Position numbers and translations under genes: made by a program. From positions 1 through 29,172 of IMG/VR virus record IMGVR_UViG_3300037585_000179: a DNA stretch of 29,172 nt. One strand, written 5' to 3'. The notes under the pieces were generated by a model. That model did not search any database. It saw only the letters and a list, made by a program, of their open reading frames with translations, and had not been told where the DNA came from. Below are positions 4,165-27,312 of the stretch, piece by piece (the first letter of the stretch is position 1; each line of letters begins with the position of its first letter). The stretch comes from a virus.

Positions 4165-4470
4165 TTATTTAAAATCTACACTAACAGGGAAATATTTATA
4201 CTCTCTATTATCCCATTTTAAAAACTTTACAACTCCAGAAGATTGTGCAGCATAGTGTGTTGCGATACCAATAGATATTGGATCACCTACTAATAACAAA
4301 TAATCTTCTTCTCCGAAGTCTTCTAGACCTGCTCGTATTTTACTTACAGCAGATTCAGTGGAAAACATTAGATTGGTGTTTGGGGGTAGTAAGAATTCTA
4401 ACTCGCCGTAGTTTGTAGCTGCAAGGAGATTCTTTCCTGATGCTTCTTGTATCGCATATACTTTTGCCAT
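4165..4470 (-). CDS. conserved hypothetical, first gene of the replication operon
   Basis: A 101-residue alpha/beta protein beginning MAKVYAIQEASGKNLLAATN, with the hydrophobic motif LEFLLPPNTNLMFS and a Gly-Asp-Pro turn (LLLVGDPISIGIATHYAA). Its size and the VGDPISIG turn resemble other small phage proteins placed before replication genes, but I cannot assign a function. AGAGGAAAG lies before the ATG, and a promoter of the TTTACT-17-TATCAT type ends about 37 bases upstream, so this is the first product of the leftward transcript. Confidence 0.6.
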   Translation of the reverse strand: MAKVYAIQEASGKNLLAATNYGELEFLLPPNTNLMFSTESAVSKIRAGLEDFGEEDYLLLVGDPISIGIATHYAAQSSGVVKFLKWDNREYKYFPVSVDFK

Positions 4471-4506
4471 TCTTTTTTCTTTCCTCTAGTTTCTATTAAG
4501 AGTTAG

Positions 4507-4535
4507 ATGATAAACTTAATTAACAGAAAAGTAAA
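4507..4535 (-). promoter_or_regulatory. promoter of the leftward replication operon
   Basis: On the minus strand TTTACT (4530-4535) and TATCAT (4507-4512) are separated by 17 bases, a sigma-70-like layout. The 11-base sequence TCCTTTACTTT around the -35 is identical to that of the promoter candidate at 17937-17947. Transcription would begin near 4500 and reach the first start codon at 4470. Confidence 0.55.
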
Positions 4536-4543
4536 GGATATTT

Positions 4544-4691
4544 GCTATTGGCTTCATGAGCAGTTATTTTTGTGAAATATTTTTTATAAAAGTTGTCAAA
4601 CAGCCAATAAGCCAATAACATAGCAGTCAAACATGCAAGAGTAAAGAGATTTCAGACTATTAACTCTTCCCTATTAGGTGACTATTACCTA
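4544..4691. promoter_or_regulatory. repeat-rich divergent control region, operator or origin candidate
   Basis: The 263-base gap between the divergent replication operons holds several short repeats. AGCCAATA occurs twice in exact tandem (4602-4609, 4610-4617) and once inverted (TATTGGCT, 4546-4553). GTCAAACA occurs at 4595-4602 and 4626-4633. TAGGT and ACCTA form an inverted pair around GACTATT (4675-4691). Between the first and second AGCCAATA copies is a very AT-rich stretch (about 4565-4591). Such iterated sites beside an AT-rich segment, flanked by replication genes, suit a repressor operator array or an initiator-binding origin. Confidence 0.4.
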
Positions 4692-4708
4692 CACATATTA
4701 AATAGTCC

Positions 4709-4738
4709 TTTACCTTATATGTAAAGTCAGTATATGAT
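4709..4738 (+). promoter_or_regulatory. promoter of the rightward SNF2 operon
   Basis: TTTACC (4709-4714) and TATGAT (4733-4738) are 18 bases apart and preceded by TCC as in the other two copies. The -35 lies in an inverted repeat CTTTAC-7-GTAAAG (4708-4726), so a dimeric regulator could cover it. The predicted transcript starts near 4745, which rules out a start codon at 4734 and supports the ATG at 4761. Confidence 0.55.
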
Positions 4739-4760
4739 AGCAGTAAGAAAGGAGAAACCT

Positions 4761-5246
4761 ATGAATATATTTTACGTCAATGAAAACCCTACTGACGCAG
4801 CGATTTGTCTACCTGATAAACTCGTTGTAAAAATGCCTCTAGAATCTGCTCAAATGTTATCTACTGCACATCGTGTACTCGACGGCGACGAGCGTGCCGA
4901 TAGTTTAGGTTTATATAAAACTGCTATGAAAAACCATCCCTGTACGATATGGGTGCGTGAAACTAGCGACAACTATATGTGGCTTTACGAACATTTTTAC
5001 GCACTATGTAGCGAATACACTACACGCTATGGTAGAGAGCATTTAAGTTTTACTAAACTAAACGACAATTTATCTAAGCTACCTTTAAACATAGCTATAT
5101 CGCATAAAACAACTATGCCTCAAGCTATGCCTGACGAGTATAAGTGCCAAGACCCTATAAAAGCATATCGTGATTATATGGTAAACGAGAAACATTACGC
5201 TAAATGGAATAAAATACCTGAGCGACAACCTATGTGGTGGTCTTAG
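4761..5246 (+). CDS. conserved phage protein of the 'AQMLSTAHR' type, function unproven
   Basis: A 161-residue protein starting MNIFYVNENPTDAAICLPDK. The start is chosen for the strong AAAGGAG six bases upstream and because the predicted promoter lies over the earlier in-frame codon. Conserved-looking stretches are KMPLESAQMLSTAHRVLDG, NHPCTIWVRETSDNYMWLYEHF, and the tail DYMVNEKHYAKWNKIPERQP. This family is widespread in marine phages; the N-terminal part recalls the pyrimidine-dimer glycosylase-like (Pyr_excise) fold, but the match is from memory and no catalytic residue is proven. It is the first gene of a two-gene operon with the SNF2 helicase, so a DNA repair or remodelling role would be coherent. 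Confidence 0.6.
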   Translation: MNIFYVNENPTDAAICLPDKLVVKMPLESAQMLSTAHRVLDGDERADSLGLYKTAMKNHPCTIWVRETSDNYMWLYEHFYALCSEYTTRYGREHLSFTKLNDNLSKLPLNIAISHKTTMPQAMPDEYKCQDPIKAYRDYMVNEKHYAKWNKIPERQPMWWS

Positions 5247-5247
5247 T

Positions 5248-6690
5248 ATGAAACAAGCATTCGTTTTTAAAACTGAACCATACGAACATCAATTAACTGC
5301 GTTAGAAAAAAGTTGTGATACAGAAAACTACGCATACTTTATGGAAATGGGAACAGGTAAATCTAAAGTTTTAGTTGATAATGTTACACATCTATATGCT
5401 AAAGGTAAAATAAATGCTGTATTAATTGTAGCACCTAAAGGAGTCTATCGTAATTGGGCAAAACGAGAAATACCAATACATTTACCAGACTTTATAGAAA
5501 GACAGATATATCTGTGGACTCCTGGGGAGTCAGCTAAACTATTAAAAGAAAAAGAAGATTTAATAAAACCTTCTTCCGAGATAAAGTTTTTAGTTATGAA
5601 CGTAGAAGCATTGAGTACACCTAAAGGTGTAAAATATGCATGGAAGTTTATAGCCAACCATGACACACTTATGGCAGTTGATGAGAGTACAACTATAAAA
5701 AACCCAACAGCAAAACGTACAAAAAATATAGTTAAGATAGGAAAGTATTGTTATTATCGTAGAATTCTTACTGGTTCACCTATAACTAGATCACCTTTAG
5801 ATATCTACACACAATGCCAATTCTTAGACCCAGCATTACTGGGTTTTAGTTCTTATTATTCGTTTAGAAATCGTTATGCATTGCTCGTAGACAGGAGTGC
5901 AGGTGGTCGTTCCTTCAAACAAGTAGTCGGTTTTCAAAACTTAGACGAACTAAATGGATTAATGCAACCTTTTAGCTATCGTGTTCTAAAAGAAGATTGT
6001 TTAGATTTACCAGATAAAGTCTACACTCGACGAGAGATAGAAATGTCTCCTGAGCAAAAAAAGATATATAAAGAGATACAGAAATATGCTATATCAGAAC
6101 TGTCCGTAGGTACAGTTTCTGCTTCTTCAGTAATTACACAGATTATACGTTTGCATCAGATTGCCTGTGGTTTTGTATCTACTGACGACAGTGTAGTTAC
6201 AGATATTAAAAATAATCGCACTGAAGAATTAATGCAGATACTAGAAGAAACAGAAGGGAAAGCGATTATCTGGGCAAATTATCGACATGATATAAACAGA
6301 ATTTATAGTATGATCGTAAAAGAGTATGGTGAAGAAAGCGTAGGAACATATTACGGAGATACTTCGGATGCTGATCGAGAAGATTTAATTACAAAGTTCC
6401 AAGATAAAGATAGTCCTCTACGTTTTTTCGTAGGTAACACACAGACTGGTGGTTATGGTATTACGCTAACTGCTGCAAGCACTGTTGTTTATTTTTCTAA
6501 CAGTTACGATTTAGAAAAGCGTTTACAATCAGAAGATCGTGCTCATCGTATCGGTCAGACGAATAAAGTTACATATATTGATATAGTTTGTAAAGATACA
6601 GTAGATGAGAAAATTGTAAAAGCGTTAAGAAGTAAACTTAATCTAGCACAAACAGTTATGGGTGAAGACAACTGGAAAGACTGGTTATAG
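5248..6690 (+). CDS. SNF2-type superfamily 2 helicase/translocase
   Basis: A 480-residue ATPase with all expected SF2 motifs. These are Walker A MEMGTGKSKV (35-39), motif Ia VAPKGVYRNW (61-70), motif II VDEST (144-148), motif III ILTGSP (173-178), motif V TGGYGITLTAA (400-410) and motif VI QSEDRAHRIGQT (427-438) with its arginine finger. DRAHRIGQ is diagnostic for the SNF2 branch. Motif II is DEST instead of DEAH/DEAQ, a form I know from other phage SNF2-like proteins. Such enzymes translocate on double-stranded DNA; in phages they are thought to aid replication or clear bound proteins. It follows the upstream gene after one base and ends at a convergent terminator. Confidence 0.9.
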   Translation: MKQAFVFKTEPYEHQLTALEKSCDTENYAYFMEMGTGKSKVLVDNVTHLYAKGKINAVLIVAPKGVYRNWAKREIPIHLPDFIERQIYLWTPGESAKLLKEKEDLIKPSSEIKFLVMNVEALSTPKGVKYAWKFIANHDTLMAVDESTTIKNPTAKRTKNIVKIGKYCYYRRILTGSPITRSPLDIYTQCQFLDPALLGFSSYYSFRNRYALLVDRSAGGRSFKQVVGFQNLDELNGLMQPFSYRVLKEDCLDLPDKVYTRREIEMSPEQKKIYKEIQKYAISELSVGTVSASSVITQIIRLHQIACGFVSTDDSVVTDIKNNRTEELMQILEETEGKAIIWANYRHDINRIYSMIVKEYGEESVGTYYGDTSDADREDLITKFQDKDSPLRFFVGNTQTGGYGITLTAASTVVYFSNSYDLEKRLQSEDRAHRIGQTNKVTYIDIVCKDTVDEKIVKALRSKLNLAQTVMGEDNWKDWL

Positions 6691-8527: not shown

Positions 8528-9462
8528 TATCTTTCTCGTGTGTTTAACATAGGGTCTCTAGCTGCAAAAGTTGTAGGAATCTGTGTATCAAACACAGGCA
8601 TACTGTTTTGCGGTACAAGGGTTTCTAATCCTTGAGGATTAACCATAGGTAAGTTTAGTGTTTGTACTTCAGGTGTAGAAACAAATTGTTCTTCTATTTG
8701 AAATGGTGTTACATATGGATTTGTCAAACTCAGTGTGTTTACTTGATCTAATATAGGATCAGGTACAGACTTGTATGTTACTGGTGTATCAACTACTGGA
8801 TCAGGTTCTGTCACAACTGGGGGTGGATCCATAGGTATGACACCACCAGAAATTAAACTGTTTCCTGTGTCAACAGGTTGATTTTCTGCAGCTTCTTCAT
8901 CTGCCATACCTATTGCTCTTTCATCTTCAGAACTCATGCCAAGTGTCGATGTTCCAACAACCTCAGGAGGTGTCATTATCCAGATACCTAAATCTGAGTT
9001 AAATTCAAAAAGTCCTGAAGCTATAGCTTCTTGTTCGTTTGCGTAGCCAAATGGTTCCCACCAATTTGTAAAACCTCCACCTGGTGGTGGACCTGTAACA
9101 TTATCATCGTCATCTGGTGGTGGATCTGTAACATTATCATCGTCATCTGGTGGTGGATCTGTAACATTATCATCGTCATCTGGTGGTGCGATTACACCAG
9201 CATTTACCAATAATTGATTAAAAGCGTTTGCCTGTTGGTTGGCTAAATTTTGAGCAGGAGTACTTACTTGACTTGCTCTTGTTCTTTGTTCTGCAGCTTG
9301 AGCTTGTATATCTGTAGGAGGAGAATATGTATTAACAAGAGTTTCTATACCTGTGTTATACTTAGGAGGAGGAGGTGTATATGCAGGCATTTGTTGAAGA
9401 TCTTCATAATCACCATACTGTTGGTTATTAAAACCCATTGTTCCAAAATTAATTCGTGACAT
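8527..9462 (-). CDS. low-complexity Pro/Asp-rich virion-cluster protein
   Basis: A 311-residue, largely disordered protein. The N-terminus is Gln/Pro-rich (YTPPPPKYNTG), followed by a helix around AQNLANQQANAFNQLLVNAG. Then come three exact 11-residue repeats PPPDDDDNVTD/G (about residues 92-125), an aromatic island GGGFTNWWEPFGYANEQEA, and further Pro/Val/Thr-rich linkers up to LNTRER. The repeats are encoded by a 33-bp tandem DNA repeat. The Asp clusters could bind calcium. Placed among virion genes; it could be a spacer or a decoration protein. Confidence 0.6.
   Translation of the reverse strand: MSRINFGTMGFNNQQYGDYEDLQQMPAYTPPPPKYNTGIETLVNTYSPPTDIQAQAAEQRTRASQVSTPAQNLANQQANAFNQLLVNAGVIAPPDDDDNVTDPPPDDDDNVTDPPPDDDDNVTGPPPGGGFTNWWEPFGYANEQEAIASGLFEFNSDLGIWIMTPPEVVGTSTLGMSSEDERAIGMADEEAAENQPVDTGNSLISGGVIPMDPPPVVTEPDPVVDTPVTYKSVPDPILDQVNTLSLTNPYVTPFQIEEQFVSTPEVQTLNLPMVNPQGLETLVPQNSMPVFDTQIPTTFAARDPMLNTRER
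9081..9188. repeat. 33-bp tandem repeat, about three copies
   Basis: The unit ATCTGTAACATTATCATCGT plus CATCTGGTGGTGG is repeated at 9091-9123, 9124-9156 and 9157-9189, with a partial copy (CTGGTGGTGG) just before. The copies differ at only two or three positions. It encodes the 11-residue Pro-Asp repeat of the protein above, and its near identity suggests recent slippage or strong concerted evolution. Confidence 0.9.
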
Positions 9463-19163: not shown

Positions 19164-19493
19164 TTATAAAGTAATTGTTATATTTCCGTTGGTTTTTACT
19201 GATACTGCACCAACTTCAGCAGTAGCTTGATAGCCTTGTGGATTAGATGGTGTGCCTAAATCTACCCAATATTCCCCAGTGTATACTTGTAAGACACCTA
19301 CTGAAGTATTCCATATAAGTGTGCCTGGATTAAAAAATAATGTATCTCTTTCTGTTGTGTTTATTTGTCGAGTGTTGTCAGGATCGAACTCTCCTAGATT
19401 TATTTCAAGAACACGGACTAATCTGTTGTAAATATCTGAAGTTATCTCTGAACCTGCTGCTAACGGAAGACGAGAAGTCAGAAGTTTGCTCAT
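19164..19493 (-). CDS. small tail-fibre-like virion protein
   Basis: A 109-residue protein with an N-terminal helix (SEITSDIYNRLVRVLEIN) followed by NTTERDTLFFNPGTLIWNTS and VGVLQVYTGEYWVDLG. The pattern TTxERDxL...GTLIxNT...LQVYxGxxWVDL is the short beta unit that recurs in tail-fibre and adsorption proteins of marine phages. Start and upstream stop overlap as ATGA. Probably a minor structural or fibre-attachment protein rather than a complete fibre, given its length. Confidence 0.6.
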   Translation of the reverse strand: MSKLLTSRLPLAAGSEITSDIYNRLVRVLEINLGEFDPDNTRQINTTERDTLFFNPGTLIWNTSVGVLQVYTGEYWVDLGTPSNPQGYQATAEVGAVSVKTNGNITITL

Positions 19494-21355
19494 CTTCTGC
19501 CATCACCTCTTATTTCTAAACGTGTAGCACCTAATCGCCAGCCTACATCGTTATTAGCATTTGTATCATCGTCGTCAGACTCAAAACGTATAACTGCTTG
19601 TCTTGCTCTTGCTCGCATATCCTTTTTCTGTGTTGTGCTACTAAGTGCATCCGTGCTTTTAGTTGATAACGAATCGCCTGGATAATCTCTTGTTTTTAAA
19701 ACAAAATTAACTTGACCTGTTTCGCTGTTGTTTAAAAAACGTACATCGGGGATTAGTTTACTTATAAATGCAAACTCTTCGCCGTCTCCTATGTCTATGT
19801 CTGCACTTTCTATGTAAACATTTGTCATAGGACTACCATCATCGTTGTACCCAAACTCATGTTGGTATAAATAATTATTTGCTGTTGCTCTTGGGTAGTT
19901 AACAATTCCTTGGTCTAACCATGCTGTTCTGCTTAAATTTCCATATGTCCAAACATTATCAGCATAGTCATAACACACATAACGATCTATTTCTGTGCTG
20001 CTAGAAGAGCAATAAAACCAACCTACTTCATCAAATTGTGCATTACTGAATGCAAAGACTTTATATATTTGTCCTAAATTAATGTCATCAAACACGTAAC
20101 TATGTACAGAGCAAGGAAGTTTTTGAACACTGCCATTATACAGATAAAAATTATCAGAACTCATCCAAAACACTCCAGGTGCAACATTGATTGAGGCATT
20201 TGGGGAAGCTAATCCTGAGCCACTGTTTAATAAATTTAACCCAAATGTGTAAGGTGGTCCAATAAACTGCATGCTGTACAAAGACGTATCAGTCCAGATC
20301 AATATTTCTTGTCTTGCTTTTATACTACCAACAATAAGACTACCTTCTGATAGACGTAAACTTCCTGCTGTATTAGTTGTTAAAGGTTCAAAATCTAAAG
20401 CATTTTCTTGGTCGCTGAAAGCTATTAACATGGGATCTACTGACCCACTTCTACTGCTTCCTGATATAGGATCAGCACCTAATACTATTAGATGTCTATC
20501 TTTTTCAGAAACGATTACTTGTAGTCCTTTTGTCGGAACTAAGTTAGCACCAGATATGTCAGACAAAACAACTGCTCGATTACTTGTACCACTACTCTCA
20601 TCCCAATAATAGATACCTCCTGCTCTTGGATTCATAACTAAGTCTTCACCAAAATGATCATGACTCCACAATCTAAGTTGATTTGTTTCAGATAATGCTG
20701 AGGTTGATCCCCACGTAGATGCTCCCCATGTACCTGCACCCCAACCTGTGCTAGCCACGTATACATCTAAACCCACGTTTATTTGGTATGCTCCATCGAC
20801 ACCTGAGCCACCATTACCACTATCGCTTGCGTTAGCAGTTACAGTTACTCCTGAAGTGTTTACAGCTGTGAATGTGTATGTGTTAACAGAAGGTACTTGT
20901 GTTATTTCATACTCTTGGTTTAAAACTGCTGCTGTTACATTTCCTCCTAAACTAACTGCTCCTGATATAGTTACAAAATCACCTACCACTGCTCCATGGT
21001 TTGAATCAGTAGCTGTAATTGTTGATGAACCATCCGTTGCAGCAAAAGTAATACCATTCGTTGTAGTTGCTCGGATAGGTGTTATATCTGTATATGTAGT
21101 ACCACCTTCTTCTAGATAATACTTACTTGTTGTACCAAGACCTAAATATTTTGTTCCTTGTAATTCTACCCAAGCATGTAATGCACGACAAGTTCCTTTA
21201 AAGGTAGTCTCATTATCTTTACGCCAGCCACCTATTTTCTGTGGTCTTCCTCTGTTAAACCTAACAAGATTACTGTCGAACCAGCCTCCTTCGCTATCAT
21301 AAGAAGTTCCTTCTCTATCTATTCCAGGTTTTAGTACAAACTTAGCTAATGGCAT
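19490..21355 (-). CDS. beta-rich virion protein, possible tail or head-tail component
   Basis: A 621-residue protein. The ATG at 21355, which overlaps the endolysin stop as TAATG, is preferred. The opening PLAKFVLKPGIDREGTSYDS, then EGGWFDSNLVRFNRGRPQKI and GGW, and the ending RQAVIRFESDDDD ... GWRLGATRLEIRGDGRR recur in podovirus-like marine phages as a structural protein of similar length. Most of it is beta-strand with Thr/Ser/Gly loops, including repeated GTWGASTWGS-type turns near residue 200. It may form a beta-propeller-like tail or DNA-stabilisation protein comparable in role to P22 gp10; that comparison is inference. It lies in the lysis/late operon rather than in the main virion cluster. 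Confidence 0.65.
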   Translation of the reverse strand: MPLAKFVLKPGIDREGTSYDSEGGWFDSNLVRFNRGRPQKIGGWRKDNETTFKGTCRALHAWVELQGTKYLGLGTTSKYYLEEGGTTYTDITPIRATTTNGITFAATDGSSTITATDSNHGAVVGDFVTISGAVSLGGNVTAAVLNQEYEITQVPSVNTYTFTAVNTSGVTVTANASDSGNGGSGVDGAYQINVGLDVYVASTGWGAGTWGASTWGSTSALSETNQLRLWSHDHFGEDLVMNPRAGGIYYWDESSGTSNRAVVLSDISGANLVPTKGLQVIVSEKDRHLIVLGADPISGSSRSGSVDPMLIAFSDQENALDFEPLTTNTAGSLRLSEGSLIVGSIKARQEILIWTDTSLYSMQFIGPPYTFGLNLLNSGSGLASPNASINVAPGVFWMSSDNFYLYNGSVQKLPCSVHSYVFDDINLGQIYKVFAFSNAQFDEVGWFYCSSSSTEIDRYVCYDYADNVWTYGNLSRTAWLDQGIVNYPRATANNYLYQHEFGYNDDGSPMTNVYIESADIDIGDGEEFAFISKLIPDVRFLNNSETGQVNFVLKTRDYPGDSLSTKSTDALSSTTQKKDMRARARQAVIRFESDDDDTNANNDVGWRLGATRLEIRGDGRR

Positions 21356-21798
21356 TACACATTCTCCCATTCTTTAGCCTGAAAAAGTAATGCTTCTGCT
21401 TCCCTTCTTCTAACTAACCCATCAAGAACCTTACCACCAGCTTTATTCCATCGTTTTATTTGTGCAGGAACTTCGTCATACTTACCTTCATTAAGGACTC
21501 GTAACAAAGTAGATTCTTGTAGATTTGTTGGACCGAGGTTGTACACCCATGAGCATAACGAGTCAAACTCGCATTGACTTAGAGAAACTTTAACTAAATT
21601 TTCTATATATCCTTCGTATTCTAACATTTCTTCTTGTAGTAAATGTTCAGCTTCGTCTTTGTTTATTTTGTCACCTTCTTTGACTTCTTTAGTGTGACCA
21701 TAACCTATTGTCCACACACCTACACTGTCTTGATAAGCGTCTAACTCACAACCCTCAAATTTTTTAATTAATGCTATACCTTCTTGTGAGATTTTCAT
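21355..21798 (-). CDS. T4-type endolysin (lysozyme, GH24)
   Basis: A 147-residue muramidase that breaks the peptidoglycan glycan strand at the end of infection. The catalytic triad matches T4 lysozyme in both identity and spacing: Glu15 in LIKKFEGCELDAYQDS, Asp24, and Thr30 in VWTIGYGHT. The C-terminal part has the usual FDSLCSWVYNLG and GLVRRREAEALLF segments. There is no signal peptide or membrane anchor, so it is a classic holin-dependent endolysin. It follows the three-TM holin gene after two bases. Confidence 0.95.
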   Translation of the reverse strand: MKISQEGIALIKKFEGCELDAYQDSVGVWTIGYGHTKEVKEGDKINKDEAEHLLQEEMLEYEGYIENLVKVSLSQCEFDSLCSWVYNLGPTNLQESTLLRVLNEGKYDEVPAQIKRWNKAGGKVLDGLVRRREAEALLFQAKEWENV

Positions 21799-21800
21799 GA

Positions 21801-22274
21801 TTAATCTTGTTTTTGCGAAGCACCAAAATAAAAACTGATAATAGCAGAAGCTAGTCCACCTAAATAACCAAGCACTAAATTAATTAAAGCTTCACTGTTC
21901 TGTTCTGGTGGTTGGATAGTTACCAAAAAGATATACCCCATAAATCCACCTACTACAAAAATGCCTATGATTCGTGCAGTCCAGTCTTTACCAAATTTTC
22001 CTCTTGCATCTTGTATATCTGCTGTTTCTAGTGCAAACAAATCAACATCAAGTTCTTTCATCTTGATTTCAAAATCAGTCTCAACTTTTTTTAACTCAGC
22101 TAACTGTTCAGGTGTTGCCTGTTCAATAGCTTTTTGTATTTTCTTAGGTTCAGGATCACAACCTAATACCTCGGATATCATATTAGCTGCCATCCCACCC
22201 ATTGGTCCACCTAAAGCAGTTCCAAGTGTAGGTGCTACAGCACCAATTACATTTTTAATTAAATCAAATTTCAT
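21801..22274 (-). CDS. three-TM holin, gene-transfer-agent type
   Basis: A 157-residue protein resembling the GTA_holin_3TM family, which makes pores in the inner membrane to release endolysin. Features are a Gly/Ala-rich hydrophobic N-terminal segment (VIGAVAPTLGTALGGPMGGM), a long charged middle (EQATPEQLAELKKVETDFEI) and two clear membrane helices, IIGIFVVGGFMGYIFLVTI (about 101-120) and INLVLGYLGGLASAIISFYF (about 131-150). Start and cyclase stop overlap as ATGA, so holin synthesis is coupled to the end of the cyclase gene. The next gene is the endolysin, which strengthens the call. Confidence 0.8.
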   Translation of the reverse strand: MKFDLIKNVIGAVAPTLGTALGGPMGGMAANMISEVLGCDPEPKKIQKAIEQATPEQLAELKKVETDFEIKMKELDVDLFALETADIQDARGKFGKDWTARIIGIFVVGGFMGYIFLVTIQPPEQNSEALINLVLGYLGGLASAIISFYFGASQKQD

Positions 22275-24010
22275 AGCGTATATATCTCCAATGACTTACT
22301 TTTACCTTTTACTTCTATAGGGTTTAATAAGTTTAGCTTAATTTTACAGTTTTGTTTAGTGCTTTCACCTATAATTAAATCTACACCGACTTGTTTAGTT
22401 GCACTCTCAAAACGTGCTGCTGTATTAACAGCGTCACCTATAGCTGTGTAATCAAACCTAGAAGCACTTCCCATGTTACCTATAACTGCGTAACCACTGT
22501 TTACACCAACTCCAATCTCTACACCTATATCTGCTTCTTTAATATTTTTCTGTATCTCTATTGCTGTAAGAACAGCCTTATGCTCATGTTCTTCTAAGTC
22601 GAGGGGTGCATTAAAAATAGCCATCATTGCGTCACCAATGTACTTGTCGACCATACCACCATATTTTTGAACAGCTTCTTGTTGTATTGTAAGAGCCTTA
22701 TTCATAATTTTAGTTACTTCTTCTGGTTCTAATTTTTCAGACATAGCTGTAAAACCACGCACATCTGTGAATAAAAACGTACAGTATCTTTTTTCACCAC
22801 CTAGCTGTAATAAATCAGGATTTTTCTGTAATTCTTTAATTTGTCTTGGATCAAGATAGTGTTCAAACTGTTTCTTTATCTGTTGTCTTAGTTTGTATTG
22901 CTCTCTAAAACGCAAGTAAAAAGCTACAGTTGTTGTTACAAACTGGCTTATCAACGACCATGTAACATCTACTAAAATATTTTGTTGTATTGTCCAGTAG
23001 CCATAAAAAACTGTGCTGCCCATAATCAAAACTGCTGCGAAAACACCTGTAGTTGTACCTAAATATGTGATTAGTGACCAAACTAACAAAACTGTTGAGA
23101 ATAAAATCAAAAGTTCAACAGCTACAGCATAATCAGGTATGTATGGACTATTTTCTATGAGTATTGACTCTGCGAGTGCAGTTTGTATTTTATGTGGTTC
23201 TAGTAAACCAGCAGGTGTAGCAATCTGTGGCATGATTCCTTTTGCTGTAAAACCTACGAACACAAATTTATTTTCCACATCCATTTCTTTTAAATTTGTT
23301 TGTGGTGTGTCTACCCAACTTACCCATTTACGACCTAGCGAATCTACAGGAACAGGGGGCAAACCTTTAACTCTTATTTCTTCGAGTCCGTTTTGATTAG
23401 TCTTTATAACATATGTATCAGCACCTGCTAGTATTTTAAGAACCTCTGTTCCATATGCTGGTGCCCAACCATCTGGTGTTCGCAACAGTAAAGGCAGTCT
23501 ACGAACTAAGCTGTCTACATCTGCTCTTGCAACAGCTAATCCTTGACTTGCATTATGCTTTAGTACGTCTATATTTTGTACAACTCCTTGAGCTTCGATG
23601 CCACCAACATCCTCGCCTAATATAACTGTGCCTGTTGTAGCTGGGTACTCATTGGTGTCGTTTTCGTACATAGCTAACACACTTGGTGCGAATGAGAGTG
23701 CTTCAGTAAACTCAAGGTCGCCACCAAATCGATCAGGTTGAGGGAATGCAACAACCCACCCCACACCTATAGCACCTTTTCGTAAAAGATTTATTTGTAT
23801 TTGTGCTAAAGTTTGTCTTGATAAAGGGTAGCCACCTTCATTAGTTATGTCTTCTTCTGTTATGTTTAGTATTGTAAAATACCCTGAAGGTTGTTGTTTA
23901 GGTACAAAAGCATCAAAAGTTTTTAGTTTCAATACATCTAAAACTGTTGACTGATTAACTACAGGTATCGTAAAAATTACAAGTAAACATATAAAAATTA
24001 TTTTTTTCAT
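22271..24010 (-). CDS. CHASE2-domain transmembrane class III adenylate cyclase
   Basis: A 579-residue receptor cyclase. An N-terminal signal anchor (IIFICLLVIFTIPVV) is followed by an extracytoplasmic CHASE2 sensor (about 25-285) with YFTILNITEEDI, SRQTLAQIQINLL, NKFVFVGFTAKG and TPAGLLEPHKIQTALAESIL. Three membrane helices lie at about 297-366, and a cyclase domain fills the rest. The cyclase has both metal aspartates (Asp416 in FTDVRGFT, Asp460 in KYIGDAMMA), the adenine-selecting pair (Lys456, Asp520) and the transition-state pair (Asn529, Arg533 in GDAVNTAARFE). It should therefore be active and make cAMP in the host cytoplasm in response to an event in the periplasm. ATG overlaps the FecR stop as TGATG and has AAGG six bases upstream. 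In bacteria CHASE2 cyclases often neighbour FecR-domain genes. Confidence 0.92.
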   Translation of the reverse strand: MKKIIFICLLVIFTIPVVNQSTVLDVLKLKTFDAFVPKQQPSGYFTILNITEEDITNEGGYPLSRQTLAQIQINLLRKGAIGVGWVVAFPQPDRFGGDLEFTEALSFAPSVLAMYENDTNEYPATTGTVILGEDVGGIEAQGVVQNIDVLKHNASQGLAVARADVDSLVRRLPLLLRTPDGWAPAYGTEVLKILAGADTYVIKTNQNGLEEIRVKGLPPVPVDSLGRKWVSWVDTPQTNLKEMDVENKFVFVGFTAKGIMPQIATPAGLLEPHKIQTALAESILIENSPYIPDYAVAVELLILFSTVLLVWSLITYLGTTTGVFAAVLIMGSTVFYGYWTIQQNILVDVTWSLISQFVTTTVAFYLRFREQYKLRQQIKKQFEHYLDPRQIKELQKNPDLLQLGGEKRYCTFLFTDVRGFTAMSEKLEPEEVTKIMNKALTIQQEAVQKYGGMVDKYIGDAMMAIFNAPLDLEEHEHKAVLTAIEIQKNIKEADIGVEIGVGVNSGYAVIGNMGSASRFDYTAIGDAVNTAARFESATKQVGVDLIIGESTKQNCKIKLNLLNPIEVKGKSKSLEIYTL

Positions 24011-25128
24011 CAACTGCCTTGTTTAATTGTTATTGTGTTAGAAGAACCTCCGTTCACCTTAACTATGTTTTCTACTCCATTTTGAAAAAGAATAACAGTA
24101 TAAGCATTAGAACCATCTAAATCAAGTCTGACAGATTCTCCTACATTTCTACGCAGACTAATTATCTGACCTGTTATTATCGTTGTTATTTGCGTAGCTT
24201 TGTCTTGACCTATCTCTGTTCCAGCAATACGAATACCTACACCACCTTGTTTAAGCTGATCCTCTTCTTCTGATATAGCTAATGCATCTATAATATTTAA
24301 TAAATCTTCAAGAAAATTTACATCTAAATAGTTTATGTCTAATTCTGTAAACTCTAGGTCAGCTTCGTTATCTAGAAAATCTTCTGCTAAAAAATCTACA
24401 TCTAAATCTGAAAAATCTAAATAATCTGCTGTAGTTTGTAATTGAGTTTCTTGTAACGATGCATCTGTTTCTCTTGGTGGATTTACTATCAACATATTGT
24501 CTATAAGATCAAGACTGATGTCGAGTATAACTGGTTTAGAAGGAGATTGATTGTATGTTTGCGTAGTTGTTGCTTGAAATGCTTGATTAAGTAATACCTC
24601 ACCCATAGCTGTTTTTACCAATATTTCACCAGAAGGGTTTCCGTATTTATCTGGTAAAAGTATAACTAATGATGAACCTGTTTCTGGTGTTGTTGTGATT
24701 GTGAAATCTGTTCCTCTTACAAACACATCAGCACTTTGCGTTTTTATGTGTATAGCTTTTTTATTATTAAATTTACCTGTAACAAATCTTGCAGTACCTG
24801 ATGCAAAACGTAGTGCCATTTCTGATTTATTAGGGTTTGCATCGTACACATACGAATCAATCACGAGTTTACTGTGTGGCATAACACGTACGATAGTTTC
24901 ATCAACAAAAGTAACAGCTAACTTTCCCCCTTCTGTTTTTATATTGTCTAACTGTTGTATTGGAAAAGCTAGTTCTGCTCCGTATGGTTTATCCCTGACA
25001 ACTTGAGCATTGCCATTTAATTCACTGATATTTCCTATATCAGCAACTTGTGCCTGTACCTTGGTCGTTTTGAATGATACAAACAGTGCTAGTAGTAGTA
25101 CCAACACTCTGAACTTTGAGCCAGTCAT
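24010..25128 (-). CDS. FecR-domain periplasmic protein with curlin-like C-terminus
   Basis: A 372-residue exported protein. The signal peptide is SKFRVLVLLLALFVSFKTTK ending VQA-QVAD (cleavage about 26/27). A FecR-type beta domain follows (about 45-160; IKTQSADVFVRGTDFTITTT is the conserved core). Next is an acidic Leu/Asp/Phe-rich segment (about 236-290, with LDVDFLAEDFL, LDINYLDVNFL). The last 40 residues read like two curlin repeats: VILFQNGVENIVKV and VNGGSSNTITIKQ. Domains like this usually sense or relay signals in the periplasm next to CHASE2 proteins, so it may couple fibre assembly to the cyclase. The first 89 bases overlap the curlin-like gene in another frame; the start is kept because only it gives a signal peptide. 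Its ribosome binding site is weak. Confidence 0.8.
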   Translation of the reverse strand: MTGSKFRVLVLLLALFVSFKTTKVQAQVADIGNISELNGNAQVVRDKPYGAELAFPIQQLDNIKTEGGKLAVTFVDETIVRVMPHSKLVIDSYVYDANPNKSEMALRFASGTARFVTGKFNNKKAIHIKTQSADVFVRGTDFTITTTPETGSSLVILLPDKYGNPSGEILVKTAMGEVLLNQAFQATTTQTYNQSPSKPVILDISLDLIDNMLIVNPPRETDASLQETQLQTTADYLDFSDLDVDFLAEDFLDNEADLEFTELDINYLDVNFLEDLLNIIDALAISEEEDQLKQGGVGIRIAGTEIGQDKATQITTIITGQIISLRRNVGESVRLDLDGSNAYTVILFQNGVENIVKVNGGSSNTITIKQGS

Positions 25129-25753
25129 TGTCTTGTGTAGATGCCTGTGTTATGTTAAATGTACGATTAGAACCATCATGATCTAGCCAGAAATAACCAC
25201 CTGCGTATCCAGTTCCAGCATACGTAACTGCGTTGTCATTTCCATCCAAATTAATGTAGTTAGTCGCACCATCTACATTAACTCCTGCTGTTATAGTGTT
25301 ACTTGAACCATTAACTATCCAGTCTAGATCAAGAGTTCCTGCTAAAGCAGTTGTTGCATGATTTAAAGTAAATGTGTTTGTACTTCCTGTTACATCAACA
25401 TTGACATTAGAACCATCTGCCCCATACGTATTACTTGGATCTGTTTGCATATTAAAAGTGTTTGTGTCTCCATCAAACTCAAAAAATCCTATGTAATTGT
25501 CTGCCCAAATATCTCCTAAGAATTTATTTGTGTTTCCTATTTGATTTATGTCCAATGTCATAACTGTGCCATCTAAGTCTAGTGCAGTCATAGAACCTGC
25601 AGCAGCTGTAGTTCCACCGATAAGGTTGCCTGAGCCTAACTGTTCAAAATCAAAATTTGAATTACTAGACCCTGAACTCTGGTCTATGTAAATTTCGTTG
25701 TCTGCTCCAAACATAGGTGTAGACAACATTAATAATAGTAAAAGTTTTTTCAT
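25040..25753 (-). CDS. curlin-like repeat protein, probable secreted fibre subunit
   Basis: A 237-residue secreted protein, rich in Gly, Asn, Asp and Thr, very poor in Lys and Arg after the signal peptide (KKLLLLLMLSTPMFG-ADNE). Short strand-turn-strand repeats follow the curlin pattern hydrophobic-x-Q-x-G-x-x-N-x-hydrophobic: FDFEQLGSGNLI, LDINQIGNTNKFL, FEFDGDTNTFNM, VDVTGSTNTFTL, WIVNGSSNTITA, INLDGNDNAVTY and LDHDGSNRTFNI. The first two are closest to canonical curlin; later ones replace Gln by Asp or Val. Cys225 and Cys237 near the end could form a disulfide. It starts as ATGA on the CsgG stop with the strongest ribosome site of the operon (GGAGG, eight bases upstream), as expected of the most abundant product. 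CsgG and CsgF just upstream would export it. Confidence 0.75.
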   Translation of the reverse strand: MKKLLLLLMLSTPMFGADNEIYIDQSSGSSNSNFDFEQLGSGNLIGGTTAAAGSMTALDLDGTVMTLDINQIGNTNKFLGDIWADNYIGFFEFDGDTNTFNMQTDPSNTYGADGSNVNVDVTGSTNTFTLNHATTALAGTLDLDWIVNGSSNTITAGVNVDGATNYINLDGNDNAVTYAGTGYAGGYFWLDHDGSNRTFNITQASTQDNDWLKVQSVGTTTSTVCIIQNDQGTGTSC

Positions 25754-26565
25754 TCTTTTAACCTCCAGTAGTTGTTCTTAACACCTTCTTTTATCGTCTC
25801 AAGAACAGCTGTTTCTATTGCCATTTGCAAAGCAATACTAATTGGTTCATTTTTAACTGAACCCCCTTCTATCTCTACTAATTCCGTTCCTTCAGAGATA
25901 AACCTAAATATATCGTTGTCTAAAGAAACAGAAAGAATAGTTTTAGTTACTAAAACTTCTATCAATACTTTTCCTGTACTTACTGACACAGTTCGTAAAC
26001 CTACAGTAAGTGTATCTGATCTGTACTGTTTTGACAAACCGATTCCTAAATATCTTGCTCCTGTTCCACCACTAGCTGTGTTTGCTTGATAAGACAGTAC
26101 TCCTCCTGTCATTATCATATCAGCAAATTTTAATGGCATTAATTTTTGATCTTCATCAAATGTTTCCCTTGTTGATCTTATCAACTGTCTTTCTTTTGTT
26201 ACTGCATCTAGAGAAACTCGCTCAACTACTTCAAAAAATCCATCATTTTCAACACCTGCTTGTTTTAATGCTCTTATTAAGTATGCATGAGGAGCCTGTG
26301 TAACTGCTGTACTAAATGTTGCGTATGTACTGTTGGATCTGCGTTGTCCTGTTTGATCTGTAAAGTTCTCAGCATACACAGCGATTACTGGTTTTCTAGT
26401 TGGTTCTAACACATAAGCTAAGTCTGTGTACAGAGCGTCAACAACTGCTGTTTTAGTTCTTTCCGTTGGTGGAAGATTATTCTCTAGAGGGTCTATCATT
26501 ATTGAACAACTAGAAAGTAAAACTGCCCACAGGAACACTGATTTCTGTAACATTTCCTTCTTCAT
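25750..26565 (-). CDS. csgG: CsgG-like curli secretion channel, outer-membrane lipoprotein
   Basis: A 271-residue protein, close to the 277 of Escherichia coli CsgG, which forms the nonameric outer-membrane pore for curli subunits. The lipobox is WAVLLSSC with Cys20 as the lipidated residue and Ser after it, which favours outer-membrane sorting. Close matches to the family are FTDQTGQ, FSTAVTQAPHAYLIRALKQA, LSYQANTASGGTGARYLGIG, VGLRTVSVSTGKVL, TKTILS and FRFISEGTELVE followed by NEPISIALQMAIETAV. At the channel constriction the phenylalanine is kept (Phe84, equivalent to Phe56 of mature E. coli CsgG) but the preceding asparagine is Thr83. The start at 26565 overlaps csgF by 56 bases; Met5 (26553) is an alternative start. 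Confidence 0.93.
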   Translation of the reverse strand: MKKEMLQKSVFLWAVLLSSCSIMIDPLENNLPPTERTKTAVVDALYTDLAYVLEPTRKPVIAVYAENFTDQTGQRRSNSTYATFSTAVTQAPHAYLIRALKQAGVENDGFFEVVERVSLDAVTKERQLIRSTRETFDEDQKLMPLKFADMIMTGGVLSYQANTASGGTGARYLGIGLSKQYRSDTLTVGLRTVSVSTGKVLIEVLVTKTILSVSLDNDIFRFISEGTELVEIEGGSVKNEPISIALQMAIETAVLETIKEGVKNNYWRLKE

Positions 26566-26974
26566 CTGTTATTCTTACTGTGACTGTTTCTTCGTTTATT
26601 TCATACTCAATAGTGTTTCCTTCTAGCACCATTGAGCCAAAATTAGATTTTGTTTCGCCAAATAAATTATCTTCTATCTGTCTAGCTAAGTTTGCATAAA
26701 TTCTAGATGTTAAGTTCCTCATAAATCTAGCTTCTACTGTGTTGTCTTTTTCTCTTTCTATCTCATCTTTAAGTGCTTGTATCTCATCTTTAATCGCTTG
26801 TTTTCTCGTAGCCTCTTGATTCTCTATAGTTAAGTAATGACTTGATGTGCCAACACCTGAAAAACTTGGATTCTTAAACTTGTGAGTCATTTCATCTGCT
26901 GTAGCACTTGTAGCAACAACTAATAAAATTACTACAATACCTGCTATTGCTAAGTATTTATCCCAGTCAGTCAT
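26510..26974 (-). CDS. csgF: CsgF-like curli assembly factor
   Basis: A 154-residue exported protein. The start at 26974 (ATGA overlap with the upstream stop) gives a good signal peptide, WDKYLAIAGIVVILLVVATS then ATA-DE, whereas a longer in-frame start adds an unlikely extension. The mature N-terminus DEMTHKFKNPSFSGVGTSSH matches the CsgF segment that plugs into the CsgG pore (E. coli TMTFQFRNPNFGG). A Lys/Glu coiled coil (about 55-80) replaces the Gln/Asn-rich linker. The C-terminal domain keeps the family order: a helix FMRNLTSRIYANLARQIED, then GSMVLEGNTIEYEINEETVT and VRITDEEGNVTEISVPVGSF. CsgF exits through CsgG and holds the nucleator at the cell surface. Confidence 0.88.
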   Translation of the reverse strand: MTDWDKYLAIAGIVVILLVVATSATADEMTHKFKNPSFSGVGTSSHYLTIENQEATRKQAIKDEIQALKDEIEREKDNTVEARFMRNLTSRIYANLARQIEDNLFGETKSNFGSMVLEGNTIEYEINEETVTVRITDEEGNVTEISVPVGSFTF

Positions 26975-27312
26975 AAAAACTTTGCCCAAACTAAAACCCC
27001 TATACATCCTAGCAAAGCTAACAAAATAAATGAACAAGATGTAATTTCAATAGTTCTTCCTAATTTATTTAAATAAATCATATCTTGTTTAGAATTAAAC
27101 CTTTCGTCTTCATAAATATACTTATCACGCGGAAACGGTCTTTTAGGCATAGGTTCAAATATTACGTTATCTATTGATACTAACTGTTCTTCTTCTATTC
27201 TTTTTACTTCTTGCTCCTGAAACTCTGTCCATTTTTTGCCGTACTTTTCAAACATAATGTTTTTAAAATCCGCATCTAAAAAGTCTTGATCCTCAGTCTT
27301 TTCTTTGGTCAT
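26971..27312 (-). CDS. membrane-anchored protein before csgF, unknown
   Basis: A 113-residue protein with a charged N-terminal part (TKEKTEDQDFLDADFKNIMF, EKYGKKWTEFQEQEVKRIEE) and a C-terminal membrane helix (SCSFILLALLGCIGVLVWAKFL), that is, a tail-anchored topology. The ATG at 27312 is chosen because AAAGG lies eight bases upstream; the TTG six codons earlier is less likely. It overlaps the preceding gene by 20 bases and csgF as ATGA. No relation to CsgE is visible. It could be a spanin- or holin-like helper or an accessory of the curli module. Confidence 0.6.
   Translation of the reverse strand: MTKEKTEDQDFLDADFKNIMFEKYGKKWTEFQEQEVKRIEEEQLVSIDNVIFEPMPKRPFPRDKYIYEDERFNSKQDMIYLNKLGRTIEITSCSFILLALLGCIGVLVWAKFL

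Follow-up and report, generated by a model that had tools for sequence, protein, structure and literature searches.

A two-arm repeat array between divergent replication and repair genes of an uncultured marine phage and its twin ahead of the late operon

Introduction

In phage lambda, cosB is a terminase recognition site with repeated sites close upstream of the gene for the terminase small subunit (TerS). In phage phi29, protein p4 folds its operator region, with the early promoters A2c and A2b and the late promoter A3, into a hairpin (according to the available part of PMC3100819). Phage SPP1 has two origins of like build, 12-13 kb apart, one within a replication gene and the other among the late genes, and its packaging site pac overlaps late promoters (available parts of PMC6316719 and PMC3485210). 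For pelagiphages of the HTVC023P type, an auxiliary curli cluster has been described (available part of PMC9599517).

Here we analyse a stretch of 29,172 nucleotides from an uncultured virus (IMG/VR record IMGVR_UViG_3300037585_000179), hereafter the window. An array of the unit TATTRG (complement CYAATA), which we call site A, lies in this window between two divergent sets of genes. Related genomes carry a second copy, site B, upstream of TerS and ahead of the terminase/late operon. The candidate binder is HTH95, a 95-aa helix-turn-helix (HTH) protein resembling sigma region 4, whose gene lies beside that of DNA polymerase A in related genomes, in a stretch outside the window.

The locus resembles the phi29 p4 system, as far as the available part of PMC3100819 describes it, in that its repeated sites form two separate groups, with a small phage protein (here a candidate) as DNA binder, A-tracts and a link (here a proposed one) between early and late operons. 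In both, the repeated sites are common to early and late promoter regions, 'early' and 'late' being assigned here by gene content only. In contrast, phi29 has a single such region, flanked by neighbouring early and late promoters, where we find two distant copies; the inverted-repeat sites of p4 (CTTTTT-15-AAAATG) overlap the early -35, whereas TATTRG lies outside the -35 hexamers; and p4 is described as a novel fold, whereas HTH95 has a common HTH. With oriL and oriR of SPP1, according to the same partial sources as above, the arrays share two distant sites with repeats, one in replication genes and one among late genes; the AT-rich stretch of SPP1 has a counterpart at most A sites and at the B sites of the larger clade, but not at the B sites of the window's clade. 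However, oriL lies inside the initiator gene, whereas both copies here stand at operon heads and are built as two opposed arms. Repeated sites close upstream of TerS, present in 24 of 28 HTH95 loci with a recognisable TerS, are also a feature of pac (as far as the SPP1 sources extend) and cosB, from which our arrays differ by a second full copy about 20 kb away and by a distance to TerS of up to 8-10 kb. Pelagiphages of the HTVC023P and HTVC027P type have a homologous helicase, and HTVC023P also shares the primase, gp33, gp34 and the terminase large subunit (TerL). In contrast, these phages gave no HTH95 match, TerS of HTVC023P has no array before it, and the composite is missing from relatives whose region on the helicase side is compact.

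The exact repeats were not found in the published literature covered, which lies largely outside the subscription journals. Nor did the papers listed for iteron origins, for late promoters in pelagiphages or for repeat arrays near phage terminase genes point to a description of them, judging from these listings, and the word 'promoter' does not occur in the available main text of PMC9599517, PMC12753301 and PMC10149686. A coupled, paired origin/operator design for pelagiphage-like viruses is likewise not described in the literature searched.

Results

Gene context and predicted promoters

The intergenic stretch 4471-4760 separates a leftward operon from a rightward gene pair (Table 1). The leftward operon comprises genes like gp32, gp33 and gp34 of phage Pam3 and a gene for an AEP-type primase, followed by small genes and a UvrD-like helicase gene at the window edge. 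Of the rightward pair, the first gene encodes a homologue of pyrimidine-dimer glycosylase and the second an SNF2-type helicase. The likely start of the glycosylase gene is the ATG at 4761, preceded by AAGGAG; the listed open reading frame start at 4734 falls within the -10 box. Elsewhere in the window, a curli (type VIII) secretion cluster is found on the minus strand at 22271-27037 (CsgF, CsgG, a repeat protein, FecR and a CHASE2-adenylate cyclase), which matches the cluster of the HTVC023P-type pelagiphages.

Table 1. Positions of genes, predicted promoters and array elements around site A of the window.
Feature	Position	Strand	Details
gp32-like gene, first in leftward replication operon	4165..4470	-	Pfam Pam3_gp32, E 3.1e-24
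Predicted leftward promoter, gp32-gp33-gp34-primase operon	4507..4535	-	TTTACT (4535-4530), 17 nt, TATCAT (4512-4507)
Array A in whole	4545-4687		Between two outward-facing promoters
Unit 1, CTATTGGCT	4545..4553	+	Immediately upstream of leftward -35; relatives keep part (some TATCG or TATTA)
AT-rich run into arm 1	4554..4601	n/a	Terminates in AAAAGTTGTCAAACAG
Arm 1, tandem pair AGCCAATA AGCCAATA	4602..4617	-	Reads TATTGGCT on minus strand; period 8 nt
Inter-arm spacer	4618..4657	n/a	40 nt; similar length in close clade; ATAGCA part kept in close relatives
Arm 2, three opposed units	4658..4687	+	TATTA at 4658, 4672 and 4683; spacing 14 and 11
Predicted rightward promoter, glycosylase-SNF2 helicase operon	4709..4738	+	TTTACC, 18 nt, TATGAT; kept in relatives
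Pyrimidine-dimer glycosylase-like gene	4761..5246	+	Pfam Pyr_excise, E 2.8e-10
SNF2-type helicase gene	5248..6690	+	Pfam SNF2-rel_dom, E 6.4e-21; phrog_62 DNA helicase, E 4.9e-125

The predicted leftward promoter scored 9 out of 12 in a consensus scan, and the aligned relatives mostly keep TATCAT or TATGAT. The scan is weak by itself, because it returned four promoter-like sites where 2.6 were expected. A CTTTAC-type promoter, as in the leftward promoter, recurs across these genomes, and the promoters flanking the array resemble array-free promoters elsewhere in the same genomes. Furthermore, CCTTTACTTTT followed by a spacer and TATGAT or CATCAT recurs before many genes (at 902, 4536, 4708 and 17939 in the window, and also in contigs G001, G007, G012 and G004); this is probably the general promoter type of the clade.

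The array units lie outside the -35 and -10 boxes of both promoters. The gap between arm 2 and the -35 varies among relatives (about 12, 24 and 40 nt), and the internal geometry of the composite is more constant than its distance to the promoter. Units within the spacer of early promoters were considered as direct repression sites; four such sites over seven contigs (two in G007 and two in G001, one of other kind) are not a general feature.

Structure of the array

The three copies of AGCCAATA in the original prediction are all present, as a tandem pair at 4602-4609 and 4610-4617 and as the complement TATTGGCT at 4546-4553. The array is larger than this count, with at least six units whose five-letter cores start at 4546, 4605, 4613, 4658, 4672 and 4683. 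The two copies of GTCAAACA (4595-4602 and 4626-4633) and the inverted repeat TAGGT-7-ACCTA (starting at 4675) are also there as predicted; the second copy of GTCAAACA and the inverted repeat are not conserved in the aligned relatives and probably arose by chance. The AT content over the 50 nt preceding arm 1 was 74%, the 93rd percentile of the window. An RNA element was rejected, as the sole Rfam match (17.3 bits) fell far below the gathering score of 174.8 and was taken as chance.

Three copies of an 8-mer within 150 nt are not rare, since eight other 8-mers do the same in the window when the coding repeat at 9081-9188 is excluded. The latter is an in-frame tandem repeat encoding DDDDNVTDPPP within a 311-aa gene. 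The AGCCAATA triplet is weak evidence by itself, and it takes the comparison with relatives to make it decisive. TATTRG occurred four times in the intergenic stretch of 290 nt, compared with 0.71 expected (p 0.02, dinucleotide shuffles). Over 25 A regions, among them the sites from which the unit was defined, 107 units were counted vs 23.5 expected with dinucleotide content kept, and 19 regions reached p < 0.05. Over 20 B regions there were 113 units vs 17.5 expected, with 18 regions at p < 0.05; near-duplicates were merged at 85% similarity for both totals.

In each of the eight phage contigs scanned, the densest TATTRG cluster per 150 nt was site A or site B, a scan that is blind for B and not for A, because TATTRG was defined from site A of the window and its relatives. 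The observed maximum was reached by 0 to 5% of 40 resamples per contig. A profile built solely from seven B sites found 4555-4689 as its single clear match in the window (24.1 bits, E 3.3e-7); the next match in the window had 0.3 bits, and the best of 100 Markov resamples (2.9 Mb) had 7.9 bits.

Conservation at site A

Relatives of the helicase were taken from IMG/VR as the best 80 of 283. When the window was aligned with the four loci of 84-96% helicase identity (L002, L025, L005 and L003), the units were kept while their surroundings drifted. In columns 201-270 of this five-sequence alignment, the three TATT words of arm 2 are among the few invariant columns. More distant loci (L004, L008 at 62% and L021 at 59%) also have CYAATA/TATTRG units in the homologous intergenic region, and the two-arm layout is kept down to about 56% helicase identity. 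Hence, the conservation that the original prediction depended on is found in close and distant relatives alike. In most other relatives among the best 80 of 283 we found a compact region, mostly of 45-120 nt, and not the composite.

Where examined, the A composite is oriented toward the helicase. In L004 (contig G003), about 0.9 kb of extra, apparently coding sequence at about 4600-5400 is inserted between array A and the glycosylase gene, which implies that the array stayed with the leftward operon. The GenBank records MN698241, MN698239 and MW574966 all terminate no more than about 80 nt upstream of the match to the homologous helicase, at a cut point that may have been chosen.

The second array ahead of the late operon

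Sites A and B align as one composite, consisting of TATTR, an AT-rich stretch, a AAAAGTTGTCAAACAG-like sequence, two tandem CYAATA, about 40 nt and three opposed TATTR. AATA was invariant in both units of arm 1 in an alignment of ten rows from A and B. The cluster in the window is one of two matching, long-conserved arrays in a large group of uncultured marine phages.

The distance between A and B in the near-complete contigs G001, G012, G005 and G013 was about 20, 20, 21 and 24 kb, respectively. The B composite was oriented toward the terminase in the 18 loci examined. In G013, G015, G016 and G018, TerS lies about 8-10 kb from array B, and the array still stands ahead of late genes. Scanning IMG/VR for AACAGCYAATARNCYAATA yielded 31 loci. 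Ten of these were strong composites, of which nine lie at TerS and the other at site A; two of these ten are on contigs already sampled. Four others lie at TerS of distant phages (36-38% identity), five come from the group with the array between TerS and TerL, to which the four contigs just named belong, and 12 seem unrelated sequence, mostly coding.

The AT-rich stretch before arm 1 had a median percentile of 95 in 26 A sites and of 96 in 17 B sites; in the six B sites of the window's own clade, the percentile was only 45-79. In many members of the larger clade, arm 2 is followed at A and B alike by a second conserved word, (T)AGAGGGCAYRRGRAA, which may belong to the element. It occurs upstream of TerS in L192, L194, L204, L208, L211, L216, L217, L220, L221, L231, L237 and L239, and at A sites such as L245-L249 and L253-L262.

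The candidate binder HTH95

Proteins common to the array-bearing contigs and without a match in HTVC023P were taken as the candidate pool. Among those scanned, HTH95 was the one protein with a convincing HTH besides TerS. It matched Sigma70_r4 with 27.3 bits, above the gathering score of 24.1, and showed a weaker similarity to the Mor-activator (Mor/C) family (19.4 bits, below the cut-off of 24.9). The segment T..IG...KQR..QI was invariant in 10/10 sequences, whose overall identity to the first goes down to 31%. The predicted structure is a helical HTH (mean pLDDT 83), and a fold search against the PDB gave no match below E 0.001.

HTH95 was present in ten of 15 contigs searched. Neither HTVC023P nor the fragments (the window, G003, G006 and G018) gave a match. 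It was also not found in any of 26 further records, a set that held no positive control and was searched with an alignment that does find IMG/VR relatives. These records were 24 helicase relatives in which no array was observed plus G003 and G006, fragments that carry the array at site A. In isolated phages, tblastn found no HTH95. A host search in genome contigs gave eight weak matches, one of them on a 10.5-kb contig of a Marinimicrobia MAG.

From an alignment search of IMG/VR we took the best 80 of 241 HTH95 relatives, with 73 loci of at least 9 kb. With near-identical loci counted separately, here and in the TerS and helicase counts below, a cluster of at least four TATTRG was found in 37/73 HTH95 loci vs 4/44 helicase relatives taken as HTH95-negative (those of at least 9 kb minus L021 and L025, plus HTVC pieces, with absence checked in the 26 records only). 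At least four units lie within 390 nt upstream of TerS in 24 of the 28 HTH95 loci with a recognisable TerS among the best 80 of 241; the exceptions are L228-L230 and L241.

A prediction set beforehand was that HTH95-bearing phages carry the array upstream of the helicase. Of 25 HTH95-bearing contigs searched, 23 have the helicase and 21 its full upstream region. At least four TATTRG were present in 17/21, and the two-arm layout was recognised by eye in 19/21, including L250 and L257, in which the units are degenerate. L263 and L264 (G047 and G048) carry HTH95 and a short A region without the composite, and so offer a natural case for asking if the protein depends on the array. Co-occurrence of HTH95 and the array is phylogenetically confounded, since HTH95 is one of several genes shared by the clade.

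Contig G001 (L095/L103) encodes, at about 19171-23383, a protein with a 5-hmdU DNA kinase helical domain and a thymidylate-synthase homologue, which suggests hypermodified thymine in the DNA of this phage. If true, the modification could affect how a protein reads TATTRG.

Discussion

The paired arrays are probably a shared control switch. More specifically, the array at 4545-4687 and its twin may form a paired composite operator for HTH95 that couples the replication and late operons, a tentative reading to which we assign a probability of roughly 0.48. HTH95 would bind the TATTRG units cooperatively, in two opposed arms separated by about 40 nt. Once occupied, the arms would bend or pair the DNA, and the resulting nucleoprotein complex would alter the activity of both outward promoters. 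Bound also to the twin at the head of the terminase/late operon, HTH95 would couple replication-gene with late-gene expression. The binding of HTH95 to the array, its action on transcription and the sign of this control are what we infer from sequence comparison.

In favour of the operator reading, the composite recurs within a genome, at the heads of two operons. With units placed outside the -35 and -10 boxes, activation or loop-type control would be likelier than simple blocking, and the steadier geometry compared with the promoter distance points to a self-contained nucleoprotein complex. Against an operator, the distance from arm 2 to the -35 varies, which is unusual for an activator in contact with RNA polymerase, promoters like the flanking ones occur without an array, L263 and L264 have no composite, and 4/28 TerS genes have no upstream units.

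The original prediction left the choice between an operator array and an origin between divergent replication operons. The flanks are indeed replication and repair genes and the repeats are conserved; given the twin ahead of the late operon, a single origin is less likely than a control element that acts at both places. A pair of origins, in which iterons and an AT-rich melting segment would serve a phage initiator as in oriL and oriR of SPP1, is the most serious of the alternatives and a possible one, though less likely than the operator. SPP1 shows that a phage can have two similarly built origins with direct repeats and an AT-rich region, and here too repeats and an AT-rich stretch occur at two sites, separated by about 20-24 kb and one of them among replication genes, with an internal geometry steadier than the distance to promoters. 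However, the twin site in the window's clade is not AT-rich (45th-79th percentile), both arrays stand at operon heads, and we identified no initiator candidate. The GC skew, a check proposed with the original prediction, is mixed. Raw cumulative skew had no minimum at the array; among the four near-complete contigs, the detrended minimum lay within about 0.5 kb of site A in G001 and G012, but elsewhere in G005 and G013. Gene direction also switches at site A, which confounds the skew.

The two functions might also be combined. One HTH protein would then build the same two-arm structure at two places about 20 kb apart, bridging or co-timing them, so that replication and late transcription or packaging would be coupled via a paired origin/operator. 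We regard this as rather improbable.

Improbable to a somewhat greater degree is that the units are TerS binding sites of the pac/cosB type that also occur, as another copy, close to the replication genes. TerS binds DNA and is here an HTH-type protein (Terminase_2). In 20/28 loci, the TerS match is preceded at 202-309 nt by the densest unit cluster of the locus (at 355 nt in L179 and L181), a placement like that of pac and cosB, and pac of SPP1 overlaps late promoters. However, this explanation is made less likely by the array lying about 8-10 kb from TerS in G013, G015, G016 and G018, and by the copy between the replication operons, which it leaves unexplained. Moreover, in G001, G012 and G005 even the nearer end of the contig is about 10-21 kb away from array B, so that no fixed terminus is seen there.

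A host DNA-binding protein whose sites the phage exploits is slightly less probable again. The flanking promoters look like host sigma70 promoters. In contrast, at least four units occur in only 4/44 of the helicase relatives taken as HTH95-negative vs 37/73 of the HTH95 loci, though hosts may differ, and the recognition segment of HTH95 is invariant. Chance repeats in AT-rich intergenic DNA, suggested by the 8-mer triplet being unremarkable alone, are ruled out for practical purposes by the recovery of site A with a profile from B sites and by the unit counts with composition kept.

Regulation in uncultured HTVC023P-like marine phages looks little studied. The paired element and its one candidate binder offer a concrete handle on the timing of replication and late genes in these phages. 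Furthermore, the array together with the HTH95 gene provides a sequence signature by which fragmentary metagenomic contigs of the clade can be sorted.
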